A model generated the notes under the pieces. That model saw only the letters and a program-made list of their open reading frames with translations, searched no databases and was not told the DNA's origin. DNA of 64,000 nt from NCBI RefSeq assembly GCF_009806555.1, contig NZ_VUOK01000018.1, positions 186,001-250,000 on the forward strand, given 5' to 3'. This DNA is from Methylobacterium sp. 2A (GTDB taxonomy: Bacteria; Pseudomonadota; Alphaproteobacteria; Rhizobiales; Beijerinckiaceae). This document shows, one piece after another, positions 44,635 to 58,760 of this stretch; positions within the stretch are counted from its first letter, which is position 1; each line of letters opens with the position of its first letter. A program made the position numbers and the translations under genes.

Positions 44635-45342
44635 TCAGCGCTTGGTGTTGGCGGCCGTCTGGCCGAACATCACCTTCTTGGCGTCCTCGCTCATGGTCTT
44701 GCCGAAATCGGGATTGATCTCCGGCGCGCGGGCATAGGCCGCCTTGGTGGCGGGCCGCTCGGCGATGGCCGAGAACCAGCGCTTGAGGTTCGGGTGCTCG
44801 TCGAGGTTCTGGCCCTGCTTCTCCCACGGCACGATCCAGGGATAGCAGGCCATGTCGGCGATGGAGTATTCGGGCCCGGCGACGAACGCACGGTCGGCCA
44901 AGCGCCGGTCGAGCACGCCGTAGAGCCGGTTGGTCTCGTTGACGTAGCGCTTGATCGCGTAGTCGATCTTCTCGGGCGCGTATTGCGAGAAATGGTGGTT
45001 CTGGCCGAGCATGGGCCCGAGGCCGCCCATCTGCCAGAACAGCCATTGCAGCACCTCGGCCCGGCCGCGCAGATCGGCCGGGATGAAGCGCCCGGTCTTC
45101 TCGGCGAGGTAGAGCAGGATCGCGCCCGATTCGAACAGCGAGACCGGGGCACCCCCACCGACCGGCTCGTCGTCGATGATCGCCGGCATGCGGTTATTGG
45201 GGGCGATCTTCAGAAAATCCGGGTTGAATTGCTCGCCTTTTCCAATATTGACCGCGCTGATTTTGTACGGCAGGCCTGCTTCTTCGAGGAACATCGTGAT
45301 CTTGTGGCCGTTCGGTGTCGGCCAGTAGTAGAGATCGATCAT
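44635..45342 (-). CDS. Glutathione S-transferase family, YfcG/YghU-type disulfide-bond oxidoreductase
   Basis: A 235-residue protein with thioredoxin-like domain beginning MIDLYYWPTPNGHKITMFLEE, the WPTPNGHK motif of the Nu-class (YfcG/YghU) enzymes, APNNRMPAI and the SLFESGAILLYLAEKTG glutathione site. The C-terminal helical domain is complete. These enzymes reduce disulfides or peroxides with glutathione. It is the first gene of the group gst - nudix - phosphatase. Confidence 0.92.
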   Translation of the reverse strand: MIDLYYWPTPNGHKITMFLEEAGLPYKISAVNIGKGEQFNPDFLKIAPNNRMPAIIDDEPVGGGAPVSLFESGAILLYLAEKTGRFIPADLRGRAEVLQWLFWQMGGLGPMLGQNHHFSQYAPEKIDYAIKRYVNETNRLYGVLDRRLADRAFVAGPEYSIADMACYPWIVPWEKQGQNLDEHPNLKRWFSAIAERPATKAAYARAPEINPDFGKTMSEDAKKVMFGQTAANTKR

Positions 45343-45523
45343 CGGCTTATGTCCCGCTAAACCCCCGGCGGACGGGAAGTGGGCCTGCCGGGTGCTCCGG
45401 TCAAGCATGTGCGTACGGCCATCGAGCTGTCGTTGATCCTCCAGACAGCCCCCTCGTCCTGCGGGCCGTCGCGCAGAGGAGGCCTCGAAGGATGGCGACC
45501 GGATTCGCGCATCGCGTTCGGGA

Positions 45524-46015
45524 TCAGCCTATGGTTGCCAAGAGGGGCGGGCCGGACATCCCCCACGCATCTGCCTCCCGGCAGAGGAGGAGGGCGATTC
45601 GCACAAACGTCCTGTCTCCTCTCCAGAGGGACATGTGGACATCGTCCCAGTTGAACAGGAACTTCCGGCCACGGTTCAGCACCTCGTAGAGGAGGGTGCC
45701 GCTGCCGCGCGCGAAATCCTTGGGCCGCAGGATGAACAGATCGGTGCGGTATTCGACAAAGCCGCGGGCGTTGCGGGGCGCCAGGGCAATATCGGCGATG
45801 CCGGCATTGGCTGAATCGGTCGGGTCGATCTCGCCGCGAGCCGTTCCGATCACCCGCTCGTAGGGGACGGCCTGCCCGAAGGCTGCGCCATCCGCGAACG
45901 GCTCGACCGCGGTGATGTCGATGCCGACGATCCGGGCCGAGGCGGGTGCCATGAGCGGAGGGGCCAGCGCCAGGGCGCCGATACAGGCCTGCAGGCGCAC
46001 GGCGCGGGCACGCAT
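45524..46015 (-). pseudogene. N-terminal fragment of an alpha/beta-hydrolase-domain (Abhydrolase_10-like) protein
   Basis: 163 residues with a signal peptide (MRARAVRLQACIGALAL, end near PASA) and the recognisable start of the large secreted family: VPYERVIGTARGEIDP, LAPRNARGFVEYRTDLFILRP and LLYEVLNRGRK. Full members run to several hundred residues with a nucleophile-elbow region; here the frame diverges after NWDD and stops. The 180 bases beyond (45343-45523) show no continuation, so the 3' part is lost. A start at 46066 is also in frame. Confidence 0.6.
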
Positions 46016-46323
46016 TCCCGACCTCCACGATCTTGTGGCCCCGGCAGACGCGGCGCCCTTGTTCACGACATGATAGGGGCCGGCCTTCCGTGCCGGCAGA
46101 ATTCGGTCGACCCACCTCTCACGTCGGCGTCAGATGTCAGGCCGACGATGGGGCCGCGGAATGCCGTTGCATTCATTCGAGGACGTACGCGCCAGCCTTG
46201 CGTTTTGGCGACCGATCTCCGAAAACGCCCCCCGTCCGGGAAGCTAGGCTTGGCCGGGGCATCCGGCCGTCCGTCGGAGCCCGGCCGGTGCGGCATTCCG
46301 ATCCCGTTCGAGGACAGGGTTCG

Positions 46324-46977
46324 ATGATCGATTACGCGCAGGCGCGGCGGATGATGGTCGACTGCCAGTTGCGGACCTTCGACGTCAACGACATCGCGGT
46401 GCTCGACGCGTTCGACGACGTGCCGCGCGAGACCTTCGTGCCCCAGGGGCGCGAGCCCTTCGCGTATATCGATCAGACCCTGCATATCGACGAGGCCGGC
46501 GGCGGGACCCGCTGCATGCCGGCGCCGATGGTGCTGGCCCGGATGATCCAGGCCCTGAAGATCCGCCCGGGCGTAGCCGCCCTCGATGTCGCCACCGGCT
46601 ACGGCTACGCGGCGGCGGTCATGGCGCATCTCGGCGCGCAGGTGACGGCGCTCGAATCGGTTTCGAGCCTCGCCGCCGAGGCGCGCAGGCGGCTCGGCCC
46701 CACGGTGCAGGTGATCGAGGGGCCGATCGAGGCGGGTGCGCCGAAGCAAGCGCCCTTCGACGCGATCCTGATCAACGGCCGCATCGAGGTCCGGCCGCAA
46801 ACGCTGCTGGAGCAGCTCAAGGACGACGGCCGCCTCGTCTGCGTGATGGGACCTCATCGCAACGCCAAGGTGACGCTGTTCGTGCGCGCCGGCGACGCCT
46901 TCGGGGCACGGCCGCTGTTCGACGCGTCGCTGCCCGGGCTCGAGGCCTTCCAGGAGGAAGCCGGGTTCGCGTTCTGA
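46324..46977 (+). CDS. Protein-L-isoaspartate O-methyltransferase family protein
   Basis: A 217-residue SAM-dependent methyltransferase that would repair isoaspartyl residues. MIDYAQARRMMVDCQLRTFDVND at the start, the ETFVP motif, and SAM motif I ALDVATGYGYAAAVMA. Alphaproteobacterial members like this lack some catalytic-loop residues of E. coli Pcm, so activity is likely but not certain. ATG 46324 is chosen by homology; it is an isolated plus-strand gene. Confidence 0.85.
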   Translation: MIDYAQARRMMVDCQLRTFDVNDIAVLDAFDDVPRETFVPQGREPFAYIDQTLHIDEAGGGTRCMPAPMVLARMIQALKIRPGVAALDVATGYGYAAAVMAHLGAQVTALESVSSLAAEARRRLGPTVQVIEGPIEAGAPKQAPFDAILINGRIEVRPQTLLEQLKDDGRLVCVMGPHRNAKVTLFVRAGDAFGARPLFDASLPGLEAFQEEAGFAF

Positions 46978-46993
46978 ACGTTCGATCCGAGCT

Positions 46994-48472
46994 TCAGCCC
47001 AGCCGGTAATCCGCCATCCGCGCCCGCCGGGCGCTCCGGCGATAGGCCATCACGGAATCCGGCCAGAGGGTCGCGTTGCGGCCCTGCGCGTCGAGGTACC
47101 AGCTCCGGCAGCCGCCGGCCTGCCAGATGCTGTCTGAGAGCCGGGCGCGGATCCGGTCGAGGAAGCGCGCCTGCGCCTCCGGGCGGACCTCGATGGCGCG
47201 GGTGCCCCGCCGCAGGGCCTTCAGGCAATCCAGCACGTGCTGCACCTGGATCTCGATCATCGCCACGACCGAGTTGTGCCCGAGCCCCGTATTCGGCCCG
47301 AGCAGCATGAAGTAGTTCGGGAAGCCCGCGACCGTGATGCCCTGGTAGGCGCCCATGCCGTCGGCCCAGGCCTCCTTCAGGCGCAGACCGCCGCGGCCGA
47401 CGAGGTCCATCCGCGTGAAGGTCGCGGTGACGTCGAATCCGGTGGCGTAGACGATGACGTCGAGATCGTGCGCCCGGCCATCCTCGGTGACCGCGCCGGC
47501 CTCGGTGATCCGCGCGATGCGGCCGGTTTCCAGCGTCACGTTCGGGCGCTGAAGGGCGGGGTAATAGTCGTCCGAGATCAGCACGCGCTTGCAGCCGAGC
47601 CGGTAGCTTGGCGTCAGCTTCGCCCGCAGGTCCTTGTCGCGCACCGCCTTGGCGAGGTGGCGCCGCGCCAGACCCTCCGCCTGAACAGTCAGCTTCGAGA
47701 CCTTGGTGAAGCCCAGGAGGGCGCGCACCTCGTGCAGCCAGAACAGCCGAGCCCGTTCAAGCCGGCGAGCGAGCGGGAGGCGCCGGTAGCGGTCCCTGGC
47801 GCGCTCCGCGATGGCATGATCGTTCTTGGGCATGATCCAGGGTGGCGTGCGCTGGAACAGGGTGAGATGGCCGGCGATCTTGGCAAGTTCCGGCACAACC
47901 TGGATCGCGCTCGCCCCCGTGCCGATCACGCCAATGCGCTTGCCGGCGAGGTTCACGGAGTGGTCCCAGGCGGCCGTGTGGAAGGCCGGACCCGCGAAGC
48001 TGTCGCGGCCCGGAATGGCGGGATAGGCCGGATGGTGAAGGCCGCCCATGCCGGAGACGATCGCCCGCGCGGTGATCGGCCCGCGGTCGGTCTCCACGTG
48101 CCAGAGCGCGGCCGCCTCGTCCCAGGTCGCGCCCTGGAAGGTCGTGCCGAGCTGGATGAGGGGCGTCAGATTGTGGCGCTCGGCGGTCTCGCGCAGATAG
48201 GCCAGGATCTCGGCCTGCGGCGCATACATCCGGCTCCAATCCGCCTTGGGAGCGAAGGAGAGGGAGTAGAGGTGGGAGGGGATGTCGCAGGCCGCCCCCG
48301 GATAGGTGTTGTCGTACCACGTGCCGCCGATGCTGCCGGACTTCTCGATCACGCGCAGCGGCCCGATCCCGGCCTGCCTGCAGCGGATCGCCATGGCGAG
48401 CCCGGAGAAGCCGGCGCCGACGATCAGGACCGCCAGCGGCTCCGGTCCGGTGTCGCGCGGAATGTCGGTCAT
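46994..48472 (-). CDS. Flavin-containing monooxygenase (Baeyer-Villiger type)
   Basis: A 492-residue FAD/NADPH enzyme. FAD motif VLIVGAGFSGLAMAIRC (GxGxxG), the GGTWYDNTYPGAACD segment typical of BVMOs, the fingerprint FAGPAFHTAAWD (F-x-G-x-x-x-H-x-x-x-W) and the NADPH motif GVIGTGASAIQ. It probably inserts oxygen into ketones or oxidises heteroatoms. The start overlaps the esterase stop by ATGA: BVMO and esterase often act in sequence (ketone to ester to alcohol plus acid). Confidence 0.92.
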   Translation of the reverse strand: MTDIPRDTGPEPLAVLIVGAGFSGLAMAIRCRQAGIGPLRVIEKSGSIGGTWYDNTYPGAACDIPSHLYSLSFAPKADWSRMYAPQAEILAYLRETAERHNLTPLIQLGTTFQGATWDEAAALWHVETDRGPITARAIVSGMGGLHHPAYPAIPGRDSFAGPAFHTAAWDHSVNLAGKRIGVIGTGASAIQVVPELAKIAGHLTLFQRTPPWIMPKNDHAIAERARDRYRRLPLARRLERARLFWLHEVRALLGFTKVSKLTVQAEGLARRHLAKAVRDKDLRAKLTPSYRLGCKRVLISDDYYPALQRPNVTLETGRIARITEAGAVTEDGRAHDLDVIVYATGFDVTATFTRMDLVGRGGLRLKEAWADGMGAYQGITVAGFPNYFMLLGPNTGLGHNSVVAMIEIQVQHVLDCLKALRRGTRAIEVRPEAQARFLDRIRARLSDSIWQAGGCRSWYLDAQGRNATLWPDSVMAYRRSARRARMADYRLG

Positions 48473-49377
48473 CGCTTCGGGCTCCCGGAAGAGGCGTCGG
48501 GCTGCGGCGCGTGGGCCTTGAGGAAGGCGGCGGCCTCGTCCAGGGAGGCGCGCGCCTCCGGCAGCATACCGGCGGCGAATTGCCAGGCGTGGGAGACGAC
48601 CGGAAAGACCTTCAGCTCCGTCGCGACGCCGGCTGCCCGGGCCCGCTCCGCCATGCGCACGGAATCGTCGCGCAGCACCTCCCGGCCGCCCACGTGGAAC
48701 AGCAGCGGCGGGAAGCCGGTCGGGTCGCCGTTGATCGGTGAGATGCGCGGGTCGGCCGGGTCGGCAGTCCCGAGATACATCGTCCGGATCGTCGCCAGCG
48801 CCTTCGGGTCGAACATGGCGTCATGCCACGCATTCGTGACGCGCGAGCCCCCTTCGGAGACGAAGTCGGTGGCCGGGGAGAACAGGGCGGCGGCCCAGGG
48901 CATCGGCAGGTTCCGCGACCGGGCCTCGCTCATCAGGACGAGGGCGAGGTTGCCGCCGGCGGATTCCCCCGCCACGCAGGCCGCGCCCTCGGCGCTGAAG
49001 GCCCGCCAGACCGCCATGACATCCTCGACGGCGGCCGGGAACGGGTGCTCGGGGGCGAGGCGGTAATCGGGGGCGAAGATCGTGAAGCCGCGATTGGCCA
49101 GGGCGCCGGTGACGGGCCGGTGCGTGCGCGGCGAGCAGGCGATGAAGCCGCCGCCGTGGATGTAGAGCATCCGCCGCCCGGGCCCCGCCTTCGGCCGGAC
49201 CCACTCGCCCCGCACGCCGCCGACGCTGCCGGCCTCGTAGGTCACGCCCTTCGGGTCCGGGAAAGTCGGCGCCTCGAAGATGCGGCGGAAGTCGGCCGCG
49301 CTCCGCGCCCGGGCCAGCGGGCCGCGGACCCGGCTGCGGATCATGTAGGCGCCGATATAGGCACGCAGGCTCGCCAT
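48469..49377 (-). CDS. Alpha/beta hydrolase, hormone-sensitive-lipase family esterase
   Basis: A 302-residue esterase with oxyanion-hole motif HGGGF, nucleophile motif GESAGG, and the acid/base part with VSHAWQF carrying the catalytic His. No signal peptide. ATG 49377 is next to the SDR stop at 49379; a GTG at 49392 is a possible alternative. It is in the operon SDR - esterase - monooxygenase. Confidence 0.92.
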   Translation of the reverse strand: MASLRAYIGAYMIRSRVRGPLARARSAADFRRIFEAPTFPDPKGVTYEAGSVGGVRGEWVRPKAGPGRRMLYIHGGGFIACSPRTHRPVTGALANRGFTIFAPDYRLAPEHPFPAAVEDVMAVWRAFSAEGAACVAGESAGGNLALVLMSEARSRNLPMPWAAALFSPATDFVSEGGSRVTNAWHDAMFDPKALATIRTMYLGTADPADPRISPINGDPTGFPPLLFHVGGREVLRDDSVRMAERARAAGVATELKVFPVVSHAWQFAAGMLPEARASLDEAAAFLKAHAPQPDASSGSPKR

Positions 49378-49378
49378 C

Positions 49379-50230
49379 TCAGAGTTTCCCACCCGACATG
49401 CGCACGATCGTCTTCCAGTAGCCCGCCGGCATCAGACGCTGGATCAGGGCCGCGCTGCGGGCATCCTTGCCGATCACGAGGCGCGGCGCCCGGGTCTCGA
49501 TGGCGCGGATGATCTGCGCCGCAGCCTCCGTGGGGGCGAGCGTCAGGAGCTTGCCGAAGGCCTCGCGGGCCTCCGCATCCTCCACCGCCGCGCGCTTGGC
49601 CGCCTCCGGGTCGCTCGGCGGCCGCCGGCCGCGGGCATTGCGGGAGATGGCGGTGGCGACGCCGCCCGGATGGACCACCGTCACGCCGAGCCCGGTGCCG
49701 GCATATTCATGCCGCAGGGCCTCCGAGAAGCCGCGGACCCCGAACTTGCTGGTGCAGTAGGCGACCTGCCCGGGCGGCGCGATCAGCCCGAACAGGCTCG
49801 ACAGGTTGACGATCTGCGCCGCAGGCCGGGCGCGCAGCATCGGCAGGAAGGCGTGGCACATCCGCACGACCGCGCGCAGGTTGATGTCCATCAGCCACTC
49901 GAAATCGTCGAGATGCGTCTCGTCGAACCGGCCGCCGAGCGCCACGCCGGCATTGTTGATCAGGATGTCGACATGGCCGAAGCGCTCCGTCGCCCAACCC
50001 GGCAGTGCGCGGATCGCCTCCGCGTCCACGAGATCGACGACCCGGGTCTCGACCGCCGCGCCGTGCTCGCGGATCCGCCGGGCGATCGTCCCCAGGCCTT
50101 CCGAATCGCGGTCCACCAGCAGCAGGCTACATCCCTTGGCGGCGAGCGCCGTCGCCAGGGCAGCCCCGATGCCACTCGCGGCACCGGTGATGAGCGCGAC
50201 CGTTCCCGCGAGCTGAAACCTCTGAGCCAA
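49379..50230 (-). CDS. Short-chain dehydrogenase/reductase
   Basis: A 283-residue SDR: TGAASGIG cofactor motif, NNAG, catalytic Ser in LSSLFG and YCTSK. It probably oxidises an alcohol to the ketone used by the adjacent monooxygenase. No ATG is found near the N-terminus; TTG at 50230 with a GGGAGG site seven bases upstream is the most credible start (LAQRFQLAGTVALITG). First gene of the group SDR - esterase - BVMO. Confidence 0.88.
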   Translation of the reverse strand: MAQRFQLAGTVALITGAASGIGAALATALAAKGCSLLLVDRDSEGLGTIARRIREHGAAVETRVVDLVDAEAIRALPGWATERFGHVDILINNAGVALGGRFDETHLDDFEWLMDINLRAVVRMCHAFLPMLRARPAAQIVNLSSLFGLIAPPGQVAYCTSKFGVRGFSEALRHEYAGTGLGVTVVHPGGVATAISRNARGRRPPSDPEAAKRAAVEDAEAREAFGKLLTLAPTEAAAQIIRAIETRAPRLVIGKDARSAALIQRLMPAGYWKTIVRMSGGKL

Positions 50231-50485
50231 GCTGCGCCTCCCGTTTCGCCGGTTGGTCCGGGCGTTGACCGAGGGATAGGGCCGGCTCGCGGGATTGTCT
50301 AGGGTGAACACCCTAGACGAGGCGATGGCCGGCGGGACGGCACCGCGCGACGGAGGCCGGGCTCGATCGCGGTTTCGTGCCTCTCCGCGATCCGCTCGCC
50401 CCGCATCTCGCCGCTCCTCAACCGGATCGACAGATTCTGGCCCGAACCTTCCATGGGCGCCGACCGTGCTCATGAGAAGGATCCG

Positions 50486-51733
50486 ATGCTCGACCGCCTG
50501 ACCCATGCCGGCCTCAGCCTCCTGCTGCTGCTCGCCGTCGCGGTGCTGTTCTCCACGAACCGGCGGGCGATCCGCCCGCGGGTCGTGCTCACCGGCTTGG
50601 CGCTTCAGGTGGGCCTCGGCGCGCTGATCCTGTTCCTGCCGGCCGGGCAGGCGGCCCTGAACGCGGCCGCCGCTGTGGTGGTGCGCGTGCTTTCCTACGG
50701 CGATCGCGGCACCGCCTTCCTGTTCGGCGGGCTCGTCGAGCCGAAGATGTTCGAGCTGTTCGGCGGCTCGGGCTTCATCCTGGCGCTGCGGGTGCTGCCG
50801 CAGATCCTCTACGTCTCCGCCCTGATCGGCGTGCTCTACCACCTGGGCGTGATGCAGGCCCTGGCACGGGGCCTCGGCGCGGTGCTGCGGCGGATCCTCG
50901 GCACCTCGCCGATCGAGTCCTTCGCGGCGGTGATCACCATCGCGATCGGCCAGAGCGAGATCGCGGTGGCTTTGCGCCCGTTCCTCGCCCGCCTGACCGG
51001 GGCCGAATTGTTCGCCGTGATGTCGAGCGGGGCCGCCTCCACCGCCGGCTCGATCCTGGCCGGCTACGCGGCGCTCGGCGTCCCGATGACCTACCTGCTC
51101 GCGGCTTCCGCGATGGCGATTCCCGGTGGGCTCCTCTACGCCAAGATGCTGGTGCCCTCCACGGAGCCGACCCGGATCACCACCACCCGGGTCGAGTTCG
51201 GCGAGACCCGGGCGGCCAACGTCATCGAGGCGGCGGCCGACGGCACGCAGAAGGGGCTGGCGGTGGCGGTCTCGGTCGGCGCGATGCTGATCGCCTTCGT
51301 GGGGTTGATCGCGCTGGCGGATGGCCTGTTCGGCACCCTCGGCGGATGGGTGGGCTATCCCGGCGCCTCGTTCGAGGGGGTGCTCGGCTGGGCGCTCAGC
51401 CCGCTCGCGTGGCTCCTCGGCGTCCCCTGGGAGCACGCGACGCTGGCTGGCGGCGCGATCGGCCAGAAGATCGCCTTCAACGAGTTCCTGGCCTACGCCA
51501 ACCTGTCGCCGACCCTGAAGGCCGGGACGCTCGATGCCCGGTCGCAGGCGATCGTCTGCTTCGCCCTGTGTGGCTTCGCGAACTTCGCCTCGATCGCCAT
51601 CCAGCTCGCGAGCTTCGCGAGCCTCGTGCCGGAGCGGCGCTCCGAGGTCGCCCGCTACGGGCTGCGGGCGATCCTGGCGGGGACGCTGTCGAACCTCACG
51701 AGCGCGGCGATCGCGGGGTTGTTCGTGAAATGA
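50486..51733 (+). CDS. Concentrative nucleoside transporter (NupC/CNT family)
   Basis: A 415-residue inner-membrane transporter for nucleosides, probably cation-coupled. Recognisable are GTAFLFGGLVEPK, FAAVITIAIGQSEIAV, the SGAASTAGSILAGY segment and GGAIGQKIAFNEFLAY near the C-terminus. ATG 50486 begins the first helix; the in-frame ATG at 50453 is less likely. It is monocistronic and convergent with the pqqA pair. Confidence 0.9.
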   Translation: MLDRLTHAGLSLLLLLAVAVLFSTNRRAIRPRVVLTGLALQVGLGALILFLPAGQAALNAAAAVVVRVLSYGDRGTAFLFGGLVEPKMFELFGGSGFILALRVLPQILYVSALIGVLYHLGVMQALARGLGAVLRRILGTSPIESFAAVITIAIGQSEIAVALRPFLARLTGAELFAVMSSGAASTAGSILAGYAALGVPMTYLLAASAMAIPGGLLYAKMLVPSTEPTRITTTRVEFGETRAANVIEAAADGTQKGLAVAVSVGAMLIAFVGLIALADGLFGTLGGWVGYPGASFEGVLGWALSPLAWLLGVPWEHATLAGGAIGQKIAFNEFLAYANLSPTLKAGTLDARSQAIVCFALCGFANFASIAIQLASFASLVPERRSEVARYGLRAILAGTLSNLTSAAIAGLFVK

Positions 51734-51821
51734 CTTGGCTGCGGTCGTATTCCGAAGACAGGCCGGCCGTCGTTTCTAAAGAGCCTGCCGTTTGCCGTAC
51801 TGAACGCACAGATCTGCACAC

Positions 51822-51859
51822 CGCGCAAAAGAAAAGCGCCGCTTCGCGAGAAGCGGCGC
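51822..51859 (-). terminator. Intrinsic terminator downstream of the pqqA pair
   Basis: GCGCCGCTTC-TCGC-GAAGCGGCGC on the minus strand (51836-51859), a perfect 10-bp stem with 4-base loop, followed by TTTTCTTTT. It lies 21 bases after the second pqqA stop and shows that the pqqA transcript ends there without reaching other pqq genes. Confidence 0.85.
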
Positions 51860-51880
51860 CCGAACCATCTGATCGAGATC

Positions 51881-51970
51881 TTAGTTGAAGGTGTCGATCT
51901 CGGCGGACTCGTAGCTGGTGACTTCCATGCCGACGCAGATCTCGGACACGATCGGAGCAGTCCAGGCCAT
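51881..51970 (-). CDS. pqqA: PqqA, PQQ precursor peptide (second copy)
   Basis: A 29-residue peptide, MAWTAPIVSEICVGMEVTSY followed by ESAEIDTFN. PqqE cross-links the Glu and Tyr of the conserved E-V-T-S-Y segment (Glu16 and Tyr20) to build pyrroloquinoline quinone, the cofactor of MxaF. It has an AGGAGG ribosome site (reverse complement of cctcct at 51977-51982). It differs from the first copy by three of 90 bases and one residue (Thr4 for Ser4). No pqqB, pqqC, pqqD or pqqE follows. Confidence 0.97.
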   Translation of the reverse strand: MAWTAPIVSEICVGMEVTSYESAEIDTFN

Positions 51971-52050
51971 GTATTCCTCCTCGTAAACTTCAGGTGGTTG
52001 ACGCAAGCGACCACGGTGACCGGAGCGACGACCGCGCCGGCCCGGGCCTC

Positions 52051-52140
52051 TTAGTTGAAGGTGTCGATCTCGGCGGACTCGTAGCTGGTGACTTCCATGC
52101 CGACGCAGATCTCGGACACGATCGGGGCAGACCAAGCCAT
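52051..52140 (-). CDS. pqqA: PqqA, PQQ precursor peptide (first copy)
   Basis: A 29-residue peptide, MAWSAPIVSEICVGMEVTSY followed by ESAEIDTFN, with the same Glu16/Tyr20 pair. A GAGGAG ribosome site precedes the ATG. The promoter candidate at 52169-52198 would give a leader of about 20 bases. The spacer to the second copy is 80 bases; both probably share one transcript ending at the hairpin at 51836. Confidence 0.97.
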   Translation of the reverse strand: MAWSAPIVSEICVGMEVTSYESAEIDTFN

Positions 52141-52559
52141 GGCGTTTCTCCTCAGTGTTGATGAGGCGTATATAGGCAATATCTTGGACGCAATACAAGT
52201 GAGCGCAACACTTATATTTCTCATAGGGACCCCTGGTGCATCGGCGCGACACAAGCGGGCGGCGTGCGCGCCGGGGAGCTGAAAGCCCGGGACCCTGGAA
52301 CCGTTACGGCTTGACGGACCTCCCGCGCGGGCGCACGACGCAGCCGCGCGACATCGTTCCGGCGGCGCCGCGCTCCCCTTCAGCAGCGACCCGCGAAGCG
52401 ACGTGCCCGACCGATCGTGCCTGCCGTGCCCGGCCCCGTGCCGTCGTCCCGCCTGAGCCGCTGAGAGGCCTGGCCGCGGGGCAACCGACGCGGCGCCCGT
52501 CACGGCCCAGCCCCAGGATGACCGGCGCCGCGTCGCCTCGTAACCGACGAGGCGAGGCC
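52141..52559. other. Divergent upstream region of pqqA and mgtE
   Basis: About 420 bases. The pqqA side holds the promoter candidate; the mgtE side (52240-52559) is GC-rich with an open but unconserved frame. No Mg2+ riboswitch could be recognised by eye. Confidence 0.5.
52169..52198 (-). promoter_or_regulatory. Candidate pqqA promoter
   Basis: Minus strand TTGTAT, 18 bases, TATATA, ending about 28 bases before the first pqqA start, in an AT-rich patch (52165-52230) that stands out from the surrounding GC-rich DNA. Confidence 0.6.
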
Positions 52560-53930
52560 ATGAACGAGATCGCCCCCTTCGACACCCGCGTCGACCCCTC
52601 CGTGCTGGCCGCGCGGCTCTCGGATGAACGCGCCCCCGACATCGTCGAGAAGCTCAACGACGAGGCCCCCGAGGTCGCGGCCGCGATCCTGCTCGGCCTG
52701 CCGATGGAGCGGGCCGTGGAGGTGCTGGACCAGCCGGAACTCGACTGCGCCGCCGACATCATCGAGATGCTGCCCCGCGACCGGGTGGCGAGCTATCTCT
52801 CGGGCATGTCGGCCGACCGCGTCACCGACGTCTTTCGCGAGATCGAGGAGCCCGGCCGCTCCGACCTGCGCGCCCGCCTCGATGCCGAGACCCGCGGCGC
52901 CGTGGACCGCCTCTCGGCCTATGGCGAGGAGACGGTCGGCTCGCTGATGACCACCGAGTTCGTCACCGTGCCGGGCACCTGGACGGTGGGCCAGACCCTG
53001 GAGCACATCCGCCACGTCGAGAAGACCCGCGAGACCATCTACGCGATCTTCGTGCTCGATCCGCGCACCCGCGCGCTCACCAAGGCGGTGCCCCTGCGCC
53101 GGCTGATCTCGGGCAATCCGAACGACAACGTGCTGAGCGTGGCCCCGGGCCGGCGGCCGCTCGCCGTCTCGCCGACCGCGAGCCGCGAGGAGGCGGCCCG
53201 GCTGATCTCCAAATACGACCTGCTGGCCCTGCCGGTGGTCGACGCGGTCGGCCACGTGATCGGCATCGTGACCGTCGACGACATGATCGACGCGATGATC
53301 GAGAAGCAGACGCAGGACGTGCAGCGCTTCGGCGGCATGGAGGCGCTGCCCGAGCCCTACATGGATATCGGCTTCTTCACGATGATCCGGAAGCGGGCCG
53401 GCTGGCTCTGCGCGCTGTTCCTCTCGGAGATGCTGACCGCCTCGGCCATGCAGGGCTTCGAGGGCGAGCTGGAGAAGGCGATCGTCCTGACGCTGTTCAT
53501 CCCGCTGATCATGAGCTCGGGCGGCAATTCCGGCTCGCAGGCGACTTCGCTGCTGATCCGGGCGCTCGCCCTGCACCAGATCCGCCTGCGCGACTGGTGG
53601 CGGGTGGCGTTGCGGGAACTGCCGACCGGGATGCTGCTCGGCGCGATCCTCGGGGTGATCGCGGTGATCCGGATCGTCGCGTGGCAGAAGCTCGGCCTCT
53701 ACGATTACGGCGAGCACTGGCCGCTGGTCGCCGCCACGGTCGGGGCGGCGCTGGTCGGAATCGTGACGTTCGGCTCGCTGTCGGGCTCGATGCTGCCGTT
53801 CCTGCTCCAGCGGATCGGCTTCGATCCGGCGACCGCCTCGGCACCGTTCGTGGCGACGCTGGTCGATGTGACCGGGCTCGTCATCTACTTCTCGGTGGCG
53901 CTGCTGATCCTGCGCGGGACGCTGCTGTAG
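52560..53930 (+). CDS. mgtE: MgtE-type magnesium transporter/channel
   Basis: A 456-residue protein in standard MgtE order: N-domain (about 15-125), two CBS domains (about 130-260), plug helix, and five membrane helices (about 285-456) with the conserved PLIMSSGGNSGSQATSL signature region. Imports Mg2+, closed by cytoplasmic Mg2+ through the CBS domains. ATG 52560 (MNEIAPF) starts the N-domain; in-frame ATG 52518 is a less likely alternative. Confidence 0.95.
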   Translation: MNEIAPFDTRVDPSVLAARLSDERAPDIVEKLNDEAPEVAAAILLGLPMERAVEVLDQPELDCAADIIEMLPRDRVASYLSGMSADRVTDVFREIEEPGRSDLRARLDAETRGAVDRLSAYGEETVGSLMTTEFVTVPGTWTVGQTLEHIRHVEKTRETIYAIFVLDPRTRALTKAVPLRRLISGNPNDNVLSVAPGRRPLAVSPTASREEAARLISKYDLLALPVVDAVGHVIGIVTVDDMIDAMIEKQTQDVQRFGGMEALPEPYMDIGFFTMIRKRAGWLCALFLSEMLTASAMQGFEGELEKAIVLTLFIPLIMSSGGNSGSQATSLLIRALALHQIRLRDWWRVALRELPTGMLLGAILGVIAVIRIVAWQKLGLYDYGEHWPLVAATVGAALVGIVTFGSLSGSMLPFLLQRIGFDPATASAPFVATLVDVTGLVIYFSVALLILRGTLL

Positions 53931-54140
53931 AACGCCGCGTTCCCGGGGGGGACGAAAAGTACGAACCCAGGTTCGGAGTGGATTCGGCAAGGACGGCCGC
54001 AGGTTTCCCGGCTGGAACCGGCAATTGTCCAGCGCTCTTGCCGCGCGCGGCGTTGGCTTGCCACCGGAAGTCTGTTTAGGCGGGCCTTGCGCCGTCGCGC
54101 TATCGCGTGGCGGCGCCACGACCACCGGAGCAATCTGCCG

Positions 54141-55364
54141 ATGCAGCGCCACGTTCGCGAATTGAGCTTGGCCCTCTCTGTCTGGGCCGGGCTCATCCCG
54201 ATGGCTCCGGCCCTTGCGGAGGATCAGGCGTCCACCGGGCAGGCCCATTACCGCCCCGCGCCGGAGACCGGGCAGCCTGACTGGATCGCCTGGACGGCCG
54301 ACGGCGATGGCGTGCTGCGGTTCGATGCCGTGGTCGCCGGCCGGCCCGTCAACGCCATGGCGGATACCGGCGCGACCTTCACGGCGCTCGATCGCCGGTT
54401 CGCCGAGACGCTGGGCGCCAAGGTGGCGGCGAACGCGCAGGCCATTCCGGTGGTCGGGACCGGCGGTCCGGCCTCGGCCTATCCGGGACCGACGATCGAT
54501 CTGACCTTCCCCTCCTACACGATCGAGCGGCTGCCGACGGCCATCCTCGACCTCGCGCCGCTGCGGGCCGACGGCGAACGCCCGATCGACATGATGCTCG
54601 GGCTCGATGTCCTCGGCAGCGGCGCCCTGGAACTCGATCTCGCCGGTCACGGCTGGCGCCTGTGGCCGAGCGGGGTCCAATGGCAGGAGGCCGCGACGGC
54701 ACCCCTGCACCGGTCGGAGACGGGCTTCTACACCTTCGTGACGATTCCGCTCGGCGCCCGGCCGCTCCGCTTGTGGGTCGATACCGGCGCGATGGCGGGG
54801 CTGCGGCTCACCGCCGCCGCGGCGGAGACGATCGCGGCTTTGAAGCAGGGCCGGCGCACGTCGATCGCCGCGCAGGGGGTCAATGGCATGGCGGTGGAGA
54901 CCCTCGTCATTCCGAGCCGCCTGACCTTCGGCGCGGCCGAGCTGTCGGAGGTCCCGGTGCAGATCGAAGGGGAGGGGGGCGACGCGCAGCCGGAGGGGTT
55001 CGACGGCATGATCGGCCTCGGACTCCTGCAGCGGCTCCACGCCGTCCTGGATGTCCCGGCCGGCACCTTCCTGTACGCCGCCGACACGGCGACGCCGAAG
55101 CCCCTGGTGCGATCGACCATCGGGCTTCAGACGGGATGGGATGGCGGCGGCGTCGTGGTCCGCCACGTAATGGCCAACAGTCCGGCCGCTTCCGGCGGAT
55201 GGCGGGCGGGCGATCGCATCTGCGCCGTCGACGGCGCGCCCGTGACCCAACGCGCGGCGAACCATGCGGCCTATCCGTGGAGCGTCAAGCCAGCCGGAAC
55301 GAAGCTGACCTTCCGGCTCTGCGACGGCACCGAACGCGCGCTCGTCGCACAGGATTTCTATTGA
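54141..55364 (+). CDS. Exported retropepsin-like aspartic protease with C-terminal PDZ domain
   Basis: A 407-residue protein with signal peptide (MQRHVRELSLALSVWAGLI, end near ALA), two retropepsin-type half-sites (ADTGATFTALD near residue 75 and VDTGAMAGL near 215), and a PDZ domain at about 325-400 (GVVVRHVMANSPAASGGWRAGDRICAVDG in parts). Two DTG motifs in one chain suggest an intramolecular pepsin-like pair. Substrate unknown. It stands alone, 210 bases after mgtE. Confidence 0.85.
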   Translation: MQRHVRELSLALSVWAGLIPMAPALAEDQASTGQAHYRPAPETGQPDWIAWTADGDGVLRFDAVVAGRPVNAMADTGATFTALDRRFAETLGAKVAANAQAIPVVGTGGPASAYPGPTIDLTFPSYTIERLPTAILDLAPLRADGERPIDMMLGLDVLGSGALELDLAGHGWRLWPSGVQWQEAATAPLHRSETGFYTFVTIPLGARPLRLWVDTGAMAGLRLTAAAAETIAALKQGRRTSIAAQGVNGMAVETLVIPSRLTFGAAELSEVPVQIEGEGGDAQPEGFDGMIGLGLLQRLHAVLDVPAGTFLYAADTATPKPLVRSTIGLQTGWDGGGVVVRHVMANSPAASGGWRAGDRICAVDGAPVTQRAANHAAYPWSVKPAGTKLTFRLCDGTERALVAQDFY

Positions 55365-55395
55365 GGCCCCGTGCCGGCCTCGGGCGCTGCCCTGA

Positions 55396-56943
55396 TCAGC
55401 CGGAGGATCGCACCGCCTCGGCCAGCCGCTTCCGCTGCACCTTGCCGTTGGCCGTGCGCGGCAGGGCGTCGAGGAAGCGGATCTCCCGCGGGCGCTTGTA
55501 GGCGGCGAGCCGCTCGGCACACCACGCGAGCAGCGCCTCCGCGTCGGGCTCGGCATCGGGTTGAGGCACCACGAAGCCGCAGATGACCGAGACATCCGCC
55601 CGCACCGGCAGCTCGGCGACGCCGACCTCCGCAACCGCGGGGTGGGCGGCCAGCACCACCTCGACCTCGTTGGGCGAGACCCGGTAGCCCATCGCCTTCA
55701 TCAGGTCGTTGTTGCGGCCCTCGAACCAGAGGTAGCCGTCTTCATCGAATCGGGCGAGGTCGCCGCCGACGAACCAGTCGCCGCGCATCACCTCGGCCTC
55801 CTCCTCGGGCCGGTTCCAGTAGCCGAGCATCAGGGCCGGCTCGGAGCGGTGGACGGCCAGCAGCCCGGTCTCGCCCGCCGGCAGCGGCACCGGCTCGCCC
55901 TCGACCGGCAGGATCGCCACGCGCCGCCCGGGCTGCGGCTTGCCGGGTGAGCCGGGGCGCACCGGGATGGTGGGGCCGCTGGAGATGTAGGTCGAGATCT
56001 CGCTCATCCCGAGCGCCTCGTAGAGCGGCTTGCCGGTTGCCTCGGTCCAGGCCGCGAGCAGCTCCACCGGGAGCGCCTCGCCGGCCGTGCAGCCGTAGCG
56101 CAGGCGCGACAGGTCGTGGGCCTCGGGGCCGCCGTATTTCAGGATCTGACGGTAGAGGGTCGGCACGGCCGCGAAGATCGTGGCGCCGTATTCCGCGATC
56201 AGCCGCGGCCAGACGGCGGGGTCGCGCGGGCCGTTGTAGAGCACCGCCGTGGCGCCCACCGACCACGGGTCGCTGAGGCCCACGCCCAGCGTGTAGGTCC
56301 AGTTCATGGTGCCGGCATGCAGCATCACGTCGGATTCGGTTAGGCCCAGCCAGTGGTCGAGCATCGGCCGCCGGCCATAGGCGGCGCGGTGGGCGTGCAG
56401 GACGCCCTTCGGCCGGCTGGTGGTGCCGGAGGTGTAGATCAGCATCGCCGGATCGTCGGCGGCGGTGTCGGCGTAGTCGGGCAGCGGCGGCCCGGCCTTC
56501 AGGGCGGCGATCGTGGGGGCGTCGAGGAGCAGCCGGTCGCCCAGGGCCTCGGGCGCGACGGTGCAGCCGCTGCCGACGACCAATGCGGCGGCGCCCGAAT
56601 TCTCCATCAGGAACGCCGCCTCGCCCTCCGTGAGCTGTGGCGAGGAGGGCAGCGACACGAGGCCGGCCGCGAGCGCGCCGAAATGCACGAGGACGTAATC
56701 GACCTCGTTGCCCATCCGGATCATCACCCGGTCGCCGGGCCTGAGGCCGAGGCCGAGCAGGCCCGCCGCGATGCCGCGCACCGCGCGCTCGACCGCGCCG
56801 AAGGAGAGCCGTTCGACCGTGCCGTCGCCGACCATCACCAGGGCGGTCTTGTCCGGGCGCAGGCGCGCGTTCTCGGCGAGGCCATAGCGGGCCGCATTGA
56901 ACCGCGCGGGCGGGTGGCGATCGTCAGGCAGGATGTCGGACAC
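55396..56943 (-). CDS. AMP-dependent acyl-CoA synthetase (benzoate-CoA ligase-like)
   Basis: A 515-residue ANL-family ligase activating a carboxylic acid with ATP and CoA. Motifs are the P-loop YTSGTTSRPKGVLH, the GMSE motif (EALGMSEIS), the hinge FVGGDLARFDEDGYLWFEGR and catalytic Lys in RTANGKVQRK. It resembles the benzoate/aromatic or medium-chain acid subgroup. GTG 56943 with AGGAAG upstream is preferred; ATG 57006 would add 21 unconserved residues. Confidence 0.85.
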   Translation of the reverse strand: MSDILPDDRHPPARFNAARYGLAENARLRPDKTALVMVGDGTVERLSFGAVERAVRGIAAGLLGLGLRPGDRVMIRMGNEVDYVLVHFGALAAGLVSLPSSPQLTEGEAAFLMENSGAAALVVGSGCTVAPEALGDRLLLDAPTIAALKAGPPLPDYADTAADDPAMLIYTSGTTSRPKGVLHAHRAAYGRRPMLDHWLGLTESDVMLHAGTMNWTYTLGVGLSDPWSVGATAVLYNGPRDPAVWPRLIAEYGATIFAAVPTLYRQILKYGGPEAHDLSRLRYGCTAGEALPVELLAAWTEATGKPLYEALGMSEISTYISSGPTIPVRPGSPGKPQPGRRVAILPVEGEPVPLPAGETGLLAVHRSEPALMLGYWNRPEEEAEVMRGDWFVGGDLARFDEDGYLWFEGRNNDLMKAMGYRVSPNEVEVVLAAHPAVAEVGVAELPVRADVSVICGFVVPQPDAEPDAEALLAWCAERLAAYKRPREIRFLDALPRTANGKVQRKRLAEAVRSSG

Positions 56944-57012
56944 CGGGTGCTTCTTCCTGGAAATGGGCTTCCGACCGGGTGTCCTGCGTCGGTGTGCCGT
57001 CGTCAACAGAAA

Positions 57013-57048
57013 GGGGACGGCGGCACCGTACGGCGCCGGACCGTCCCC
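57013..57048. terminator. Hairpin upstream of the acyl-CoA ligase gene
   Basis: GGGGACGG and CCGTCCCC form an 8-bp stem around a 20-base loop that itself contains a GTAC palindrome. It lies between rplI and the ligase gene; no T-run on either side. Confidence 0.35.
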
Positions 57049-57058
57049 TCCTGAATAG

Positions 57059-57086
57059 GCTCGATCCGGGCAGGCCCGGATCGAGC
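57059..57086 (-). terminator. Strong hairpin after rplI
   Basis: GCTCGATCCGGGC and GCCCGGATCGAGC form a perfect 13-bp stem with a two-base centre, 16 bases beyond the rplI stop. It probably marks the 3' end of the rpsF-rpsR-rplI mRNA although no T-run follows. Confidence 0.6.
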
Positions 57087-57102
57087 GGCCGTGCGAAGAG
57101 GA

Positions 57103-57675
57103 TCAGCCGCGGTCGTCGGCGCCCTCGCCGGCATCGGCCAGCGCCTGACCGACCTCCAGGCCGAGATCGTCGAGGTTGAACGCCTCGCGCTCGGTGACCG
57201 ACTCGCCGCGGGCCTGACGCTCGGCCTCCTCGGGGCTGCGGGCGACGTTGACGGTGATCTCGACCTCGACCTCGGGGTGCAGCACCACCGGGACCGTGTG
57301 CAGGCCGAGCGTCTTGATCGGCTGGTTCAGGGTGAACTGGCCGCGATCCACCGTGAAGCCCTCCTTCGAGACGACCTCGGCGAGGTCGCGGGTCGAGACG
57401 GAGCCGTAGAGCACGCCGGTCTCGCCCGACTGGCGGATCAGGACGAAGCTCTGGCCGTTCAGCTTCTCGGCCACCGCCTCGGCGTCCTTCTTGCGGTCGA
57501 GGTTGCGGGCTTCGAGCTGGGCGCGCTGGGCCTCGAAGTGCTTCTTGTTGGCTTCCGTCGCGCGCAGGGCCTTGCCGCGGGCGAGCAGGAAGTTGCGGGC
57601 GAAGCCCGGGCGGACATTCACGGTCTCGCCCATCTGGCCGAGCTTGGCCACGCGCTCGAGCAGGATCACTTCCAT
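57103..57675 (-). CDS. rplI: 50S ribosomal protein L9
   Basis: A 190-residue L9: N-terminal rRNA-binding domain ([36 protein letters not shown] in parts), long connecting helix ([23 protein letters not shown]) and the C-terminal domain. The length and acidic tail (EGADDRG) are typical of alphaproteobacteria. Last gene of the rpsF-rpsR-DUF2232-rplI block. Confidence 0.97.
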
Positions 57676-57716
57676 GGTCTTTCTCCTTCAGGGTTTCGGC
57701 CTCTCGGGCCGGGGTC

Positions 57717-58760
57717 TCACGGCGCCGGGCGCTTCTGCGAACGCCGGCGGTCGAGGGCTGTGTCGGCGAGGCCGAACAGGGTGAGGGCGACCAGGGCGAT
57801 GCCCTGGGTCACGAACAGGATCAGGTACAGCCCGAACAGCATCAGGGTGCGTCCCGGCCGGCCGCGGGAACGGTCGTGGAAGGCGGCGAGGCCTTGAAGC
57901 GCGAAGGCCGCGCCGAACCCGCCCACCAGGGCGACGCCGAGCACGCCGACATAGCCGGGCGCGAGGCACATCAGCAGCGCGGCCCCGAGGGCGGCGAGCG
58001 TGATCCGCGGCATCGCCGTCGCGGGGAGGTCGGGCCAGGGCCGGGGCAGGCGGCCGGAGATTTTCACGATGCGCGCCGAGGCCCAGAGATAGAAGGCCAG
58101 CAGCAGCGCCAGCCCGTTCGCCGCGAAGGCCGGCACCACGCGCGCCAGGGCGTCGGCCATCTCGGTCCGCGTGACGTCGGCCGGATCAGCATCCGCCTGG
58201 GCCTGCGCATCGGTGTCCGCACCCGGATCTTGGCCGGCGCGGTCCGTCTCGGACGGAGGCGCGTCGGCGCGGCCGGCCTCGCCGGTCGTGCGGGCAGGAG
58301 CAGGAGCGGGCATCCGGGCCTGCACCAGGGTTTGGGCGAGGCTGCGCAGCTGCCGATCGAAGGCCGCGTGGTTCGGCGAGGACAGGACCGCGATGGCGAT
58401 GAAGGCGAGCGCCGCCGTGGCGGCGATCCAGCCGAGCAGGCGGCCGGTCGGGTACCATTCGAGGCCGCGCGGCGTCTCGCGCCCGAGGAGGGTCAGATAG
58501 GCGAGCCACCACGCGGGCAGCGCGATATAGGCCCCGAAGGCGAGGCCCATGAAGGGCGCGATCGCCAGGCCCAGCGCGAGGCTGCCGGCCGCGGCCGCCC
58601 ACAAAGCCGCCTTGTGGCTCCAGCCGAGGCCGACGATCAGGATCGGCAGCGGCGCCACGAGGTAGAGCAGGATCGCGAGCGGCGTCGCCTTCAGGAGCAC
58701 CCCGAACAGGAGTGCCGAGACGAGGCCCGCGCCGATGCCGATGCCGATATGCTGTGCCAT
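57717..58760 (-). CDS. DUF2232 polytopic membrane protein
   Basis: A 347-residue inner-membrane protein with about eight hydrophobic segments, of the DUF2232 family often found between rpsR and rplI in alphaproteobacteria. A Ala/Thr/Asp-rich hydrophilic loop lies at about 145-205. No function is established for the family. Confidence 0.85.
   Translation of the reverse strand: MAQHIGIGIGAGLVSALLFGVLLKATPLAILLYLVAPLPILIVGLGWSHKAALWAAAAGSLALGLAIAPFMGLAFGAYIALPAWWLAYLTLLGRETPRGLEWYPTGRLLGWIAATAALAFIAIAVLSSPNHAAFDRQLRSLAQTLVQARMPAPAPARTTGEAGRADAPPSETDRAGQDPGADTDAQAQADADPADVTRTEMADALARVVPAFAANGLALLLAFYLWASARIVKISGRLPRPWPDLPATAMPRITLAALGAALLMCLAPGYVGVLGVALVGGFGAAFALQGLAAFHDRSRGRPGRTLMLFGLYLILFVTQGIALVALTLFGLADTALDRRRSQKRPAP

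Follow-up and report, generated by a model that had tools for sequence, protein, structure and literature searches.

PQQ is the cofactor of the calcium and lanthanide methanol dehydrogenases, and in the peptide PqqA a glutamate and a tyrosine four positions apart are the residues turned into PQQ. Orphan pqqA copies are a kind of gene already known from Methylorubrum extorquens AM1, where two of them, pqqA2 and pqqA3, showed a fourfold change with neodymium supply (PMC11317620; this and the other reports cited here were accessible in part). Two AM1 homologues with adjacent tags, MEXAM1_RS21885/RS21890, have been proposed as the source of PQQ without the operon pqqA (PMC6520949), and loss of the operon pqqA without loss of PQQ is on record for M. 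extorquens (Toyama and Lidstrom 1998, as cited in PMC6520949); judged from the adjacent tags, these homologues are probably pqqA2 and pqqA3 themselves. Multiple pqqA genes are also reported from other lineages: the Methylophilaceae carry 3–12 copies for what is mostly one enzyme set (PMC4109929), Hyphomicrobium has five, two in operons and three apart (PMC9851590), and Methylovorus sp. MP688 likewise has several, the supply of PqqA there being said to be rate-determining (Ge et al. 2015, as cited in PMC11317620). Methylobacterium aquaticum 22A has a pqqA1A2BCDE operon (PMC4392154, PMC5784242), in which methanol raises pqqA1A2 and only calcium raises pqqBCDE (PMC5784242). The pqqA of M. oryzae lies 930 kb from pqqBC/DE (PMC4161386), and that of M. 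mesophilicum SR1.6/6 has been called missing (PMC3707593). A different strain of the latter species, NBRC 15688 (L068), carries a tandem pqqA pair; going by the accessible text on SR1.6/6, short pqqA genes may therefore have been overlooked there.

The locus described here lies in the window, that is, the whole 64,000-nucleotide stretch of Methylobacterium sp. 2A that was analysed. Like AM1 pqqA2/pqqA3, which come from the same genus group, it consists of two pqqA genes additional to that of the pqq operon and separate from it. AM1 is compared by its published description, the accessible parts of which mention neither the upstream box reported below nor its link to the array; the Methylorubrum-type loci read here differ in having a longer leader and no mgtE upstream where 2.5 kb was covered. 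Strain 22A shares the duplicated pqqA, but there both copies precede pqqBCDE. The relevant features of the window are as follows.

52225–52184, minus strand: conserved 42-bp promoter box, TATGAGAAATATAAGTGTTGCGCTCACTTGTATTGCGTCCAA, near-invariant across 61 aligned loci
52199–52194, minus strand: −35-like hexamer CTTGTA, overlapping the box; CTTG invariant in the 61 aligned loci
52175–52170, minus strand: −10-like hexamer CTATAT, its columns partly conserved
52140–52051, minus strand: orphan pqqA copy 1, 29 aa, MAWSAPIVSEICVGMEVTSYESAEIDTFN; TIGR02107 39.9 bits, PF08042 36.3 bits
52050–51971, minus strand: 80-nt inter-copy spacer, with a ribosome-site-like GAGGAGG stretch before copy 2
51970–51881, minus strand: orphan pqqA copy 2, 29 aa, MAWTAPIVSEICVGMEVTSYESAEIDTFN; TIGR02107 41.2 bits, PF08042 39.1 bits
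51861–51834, minus strand: intrinsic terminator hairpin with a T-rich tail behind; −21.8 kcal/mol, z −3.9
52236–53930 as listed ORF, plus strand: mgtE, magnesium transporter, divergent neighbour; TIGR00400 311 bits
50453–51733, plus strand: nucleoside transporter of the NupC family, convergent neighbour; Pfam Nucleos_tra2_C 243 bits
23184–26169, plus strand: mxaF (best solved match a methanol dehydrogenase alpha subunit, 1341 bits) and mxaJ (TIGR03870 388 bits)

The two pqqA genes are arranged head to tail, each with a purine-rich, ribosome-site-like stretch, and both peptides belong to PqqA by both curated models (cut-offs 20 bits for NCBIfam TIGR02107 and 21.1 bits for Pfam PF08042). An earlier note on this DNA had described tandem copies identical at 87 of 90 bases and 28 of 29 residues, and the alignment agrees: the base differences fall at gene positions 6, 10 and 15, and the sole residue change is S4/T4. 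Both copies have E16 and Y20, the E-x3-Y arrangement of a PQQ precursor. Across 138 copies from 64 loci, residues 13–20, E16 and Y20 included, are invariant and residues 13–26 almost so; changes between copies of one genome are concentrated in third codon positions, with 0.143 per site compared with 0.033 and 0.021 at the other two.

The same note had placed no pqqBCDE near the pair, and this was borne out for pqqB and pqqE: among the matches listed, the over-cut-off pqqB and pqqE of the genome are only on another contig than the pair, and tblastn with PqqB gave no match in window positions 45001–58000. By PF08042 there are three pqqA in this genome of 6.4 Mb and 67 contigs. The pair is on contig C23; the third copy, MKWAAPVVSEICVGMEVTSYESAEIDTFN, which matches orphan copy 1 at 26 of 29 residues, heads an operon on contig C4 in the order pqqA, pqqB, fused pqqC-pqqD and pqqE, with PqqB, PqqCD and PqqE all over their cut-offs. 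The PqqF model gave two matches, both below cut-off. With a complete operon that has its own pqqA, the cell is not without pqqB–E, and the pair adds a further source of precursor to that operon, as an orphan unit of the AM1 kind. The genome search for pqqBCDE and further pqqA copies had been suggested in the earlier note, which set against its own reading a complete operon elsewhere supplying nearly all message beside a silent pair; the operon, half of that picture, is present. Contig C4 also carries an XoxF-type methanol dehydrogenase (162989–164608, L213) about 5 kb past pqqE, with 6oc5 as its best solved match (1312.7 bits), and the matches to PQQ alcohol dehydrogenase in the genome comprise four over the cut-off and two under.

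The orphan pqqA arrangement is widespread in the genus and not special to this genome. PF08042 matches occur in 111 of 111 genus genomes, with 1 to 6 in each. A pattern of two pqqA cores about 147–177 nt apart, searched in one genome per species for 84,980 species, returned 82 stretches, in 67 of which a stricter finder confirmed PqqA; because spacing and part of the motif are fixed in this pattern, arrays laid out differently would escape it. The titles of the 67, L118 and L119 excepted, name Methylobacterium, Methylorubrum, or bins called only Methylobacteriaceae or Beijerinckiaceae. Together with the window these stretches form a set of 68 loci: 57 have two copies, eight have three (L054 among them), one has four, and two have one within the stretch covered.

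Downstream of the pair come a terminator and the convergent nucleoside transporter (also matched by TIGR00804 at 415 bits, below its cut-off of 442) and not pqqB–E, so that the pair does not head a pqqABCDE operon. The intrinsic terminator proposed earlier stands, although the hairpin starts 19 nt past the stop of copy 2 and not 21; a terminator-like hairpin lies 3′ of the last pqqA copy in 56 of the 68 loci, a count in which 6 loci have fewer than 150 nt beyond the last copy. The inter-copy spacer (51971–52050) has no unusual fold (z 0.41). Within the window no Rfam family reached its gathering score, and nine sub-threshold Rfam matches (six to microRNA models, three to a plasmid antisense RNA model) at seven loci (L124, from the window's genome, plus six more) were set aside as chance. 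On the upstream side, the true start of mgtE is probably the ATG at 52560.

The promoter candidate of the earlier note survives in one respect and not in another: CTTGTA-N18-CTATAT is conserved in relatives, with CTATAT ending 29 nt before the ATG, but an E. coli sigma-70-type scan found no promoter at the pair (0.2 expected). We take hexamers of this type to fit alphaproteobacterial housekeeping promoters. For M. extorquens, the −35 is described as resembling that of E. coli and the −10 as being without a conserved −7 T (PMC9320726). Mean information per column is 0.13–0.26 bits at 60 to 11 nt 5′ of the box, reaches 1.5–1.9 bits over the next 40 nt, inside the box, and is lower at the −10, in an alignment of 61 loci that were selected by a box match within 6 substitutions and are thereby biased towards likeness. 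Their box consensus is TATGAGAAATATAAGTgtNGNGccCgCTTGtATTGcGcCCAA. Among the 68 loci, L042 and L081 have too little upstream sequence and L053 and L066 are operon-type; the box is present within 6 substitutions in 62 of the remaining 64, and is visible by eye, with a small indel, in the other two (L052 and L069). It contains an imperfect inverted repeat, AATATAAGTG-N7-CACTTGTATT, centred just upstream of the −35, a position that we infer to be typical of polymerase-contacting activators; conservation of the palindrome is not strict, since the right arm is variable and reads CTTGAA in several species. A literature search that left most subscription papers outside its reach found no earlier description of the box, which is apparently a new part, undescribed so far.

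A box pattern allowing up to 3 mismatches matches 88 of the 111 genus genomes, one copy in each, while the reversed-pattern control matches 0. A family sample of 397 genomes has the box in 36, which are 36 of its 45 genus members and 0 of the 352 others. Thirty of the 88 box loci were read: pqqA, in 1–3 copies, comes next in 29, and the remaining one (L177) stops at the contig end before its first gene is complete. At operon loci the box is absent in 49 of 49 (48 genomes). Two pqqA genes stand inside the operon, as in strain 22A, in 19 of the 23 box-less genomes; a second precursor gene is thus mostly kept either way. Box-less genome G064 has one pqqA in the stretch read and two PF08042 matches genome-wide, and G026 and G077 have a single pqqA in the operon stretch read and 3 and 4 such matches genome-wide. 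Genome G025 (L201), which is 99% complete, has a single pqqA match in the whole genome, and is a natural case of an array lost or never gained.

It could be asked whether the box belongs to the divergent mgtE and not to pqqA, since mgtE lies upstream in 35 of the 43 box-bearing loci for which 2.5 kb was covered. However, the other eight have no mgtE match in the stretch covered and still have the box with pqqA, the hexamers are oriented towards pqqA, and the distance from box end to first pqqA is 41–46 nt in 51 of 62 loci (124–155 nt in the other 11); ownership by mgtE is accordingly very doubtful. The near-identity of the two copies raises a different question, whether a recent local duplication, or exchange keeping the copies alike, explains their 87 of 90 matching bases. 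Distances were compared among 138 copies in 64 non-operon arrays, having dropped L053, L066 and the single-copy L052 and L062. Over all locus pairs, mean distances (of 90) are nearly equal for same-position (11.3 and 10.3) and cross-position copies (11.2) and only 5.9 within genomes, as slow long-term exchange would give, and 18 copies have only their own sister as closest relative, with ties in a further 7. Against this, 85 of the 138 have as their sole nearest neighbour the same-position copy in a different genome (28 fall otherwise), and of 112 locus pairs with near-identical leaders (0–5 differences) 87 have the same-position copies closer and 10 the cross-position copies. The corresponding counts are 80 and 14 of 123 pairs at 6–10 leader differences, 89 and 39 of 175 at 11–20, and 584 and 465 of 1606 above 20, a sorting by leader divergence that explains both the nearest-copy result and the near-equal overall distances. 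The window copies themselves differ from their counterparts in L055 by 1 (copy 1) and 2 (copy 2), and from each other by 3. Position-matched copies among close relatives, with a signal that fades in distant ones, indicate that the window pair is not a recent duplication: judged from these substitutions, the pair is older than the split from the window's close relatives, L055 included, and recent duplication is unlikely. On the same comparison the copies have likely undergone slow exchange in the longer term, yet as an account of the identity seen here we give duplication or exchange hardly any credence.

Two further explanations concern what the peptides do. Given a complete operon in the genome, and one genus genome (G025) that lives without the array, the pair could be a redundant duplicate in the course of being lost, with little or no expression; the fact that 88 of 111 genus genomes retain the box, and most loci a terminator-like hairpin, together with the third-position bias, makes this very unlikely. 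Somewhat easier to entertain, while still improbable, is a role other than that of precursor, for instance in lanthanide handling, as suggested for AM1 pqqA2/pqqA3. Expression there is lanthanide-linked, and the accessible text raises the idea that PqqA takes part in an alternative uptake system (PMC11317620); the box is, moreover, kept in 15 of the 27 genomes without an over-cut-off MxaJ. But the PqqA core with E-x3-Y is retained, copy 1 is close to the operon copy, and the peptides bear no sequence mark of a second function.

We therefore consider it likely that the pair is a separately controlled, orphan two-gene supply unit for the PQQ precursor. A single promoter, CTTGTA-N18-CTATAT, with the box over its −35, would transcribe both pqqA genes up to the strong terminator, and each would be translated from its own ribosome-binding site; the peptides would be matured by the PqqE, PqqD, PqqB and PqqC of the pqqA-B-CD-E operon elsewhere. 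The box may bind an activator or other regulator, and the orphan copies may set PQQ output; separate control would mean that a consumed, one-use precursor is supplied apart from the reusable enzymes. This comes close to the dedicated, putatively high-output source for a modular maturation system that the earlier note envisaged, which anatomy and conservation fit, with the difference that the full operon has its own pqqA and that the arrangement is common in the genus; modular precursor supply is plausible in view of that conservation.

Several observations count against the supply unit. Genome G025, near-complete with a single pqqA and no box, indicates that the unit can be lost, and the window's own genome has no second inverted-repeat site within 3 mismatches. 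The direction of the neodymium effect on the AM1 orphans seems opposite in the accessible results and discussion of the report (PMC11317620), and in a Beijerinckiaceae strain with three pqqA copies neodymium lowers them (PMC10848612). Strain DM4, described as having no start site directly upstream of the operon pqqA, only one before mxbM, speaks for the unit; the same source, in its accessible part, cites an older, reporter-tested promoter for the AM1 operon pqqA (PMC9320726), by which the operon pqqA would not be silent in AM1. Conservation among relatives is, besides, by itself no proof of regulation.

More tentatively, and with rather less than even confidence, the box might be a genus-specific, single-target switch, binding a dedicated regulator so that precursor supply answers to a signal of its own, be it methanol, lanthanide or PQQ demand, independently of the maturation enzymes. 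If so, one cofactor pathway would be tuned by its one-use substrate peptide. Orphan copies, which published accounts in their accessible parts propose as the explanation for PQQ made without the operon pqqA, are now seen across much of the genus, and the box offers a concrete handle on the control of PQQ supply, perhaps also on raising PQQ yield.

The presence of mxaF and mxaJ 26 kb from the pair (mxaJ 27 kb from the box) suggested a link between box and mxa cluster, which was rejected: in the 18 other genomes compared, where a single contig carries both, mxaJ lies 0.1–3.2 Mb from the box. An over-cut-off MxaJ occurs in 84 of the 111 genomes, and the persistence of the box in over half of the remainder suggests that the array has no tie to the calcium enzyme; given that several assemblies are fragmented, little weight attaches to any single absence of MxaJ or box.

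Measured from box end to first ATG, the longer leaders are 124–127 nt at ten loci, of a type to which the Methylorubrum species belong, and 155 nt in L082. The roughly 82 extra bases of the ten (L048, L060, L067, L080, L087, L090, L092, L093, L104 and L113) resemble the inter-copy spacer at about 2 to 5 sd above shuffles, to which the shared ribosome site contributes, and are perhaps what is left of a lost first pqqA copy. A half-site search of the window's own genome gave seven other places with 1–2 mismatches, and its reversed control one. Only one of these other places, contig C23 319113–319137, has a single mismatch, and it may be chance because the reversed control also gave one. A further motif match, on contig C34, was dismissed as chance, since by eye it falls within a frame resembling NADH dehydrogenase subunit G. 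Between pqqB and the fused pqqCD of the operon on contig C4 (L004, about 7690–7560), a long palindromic, repeat-like stretch was seen by eye.
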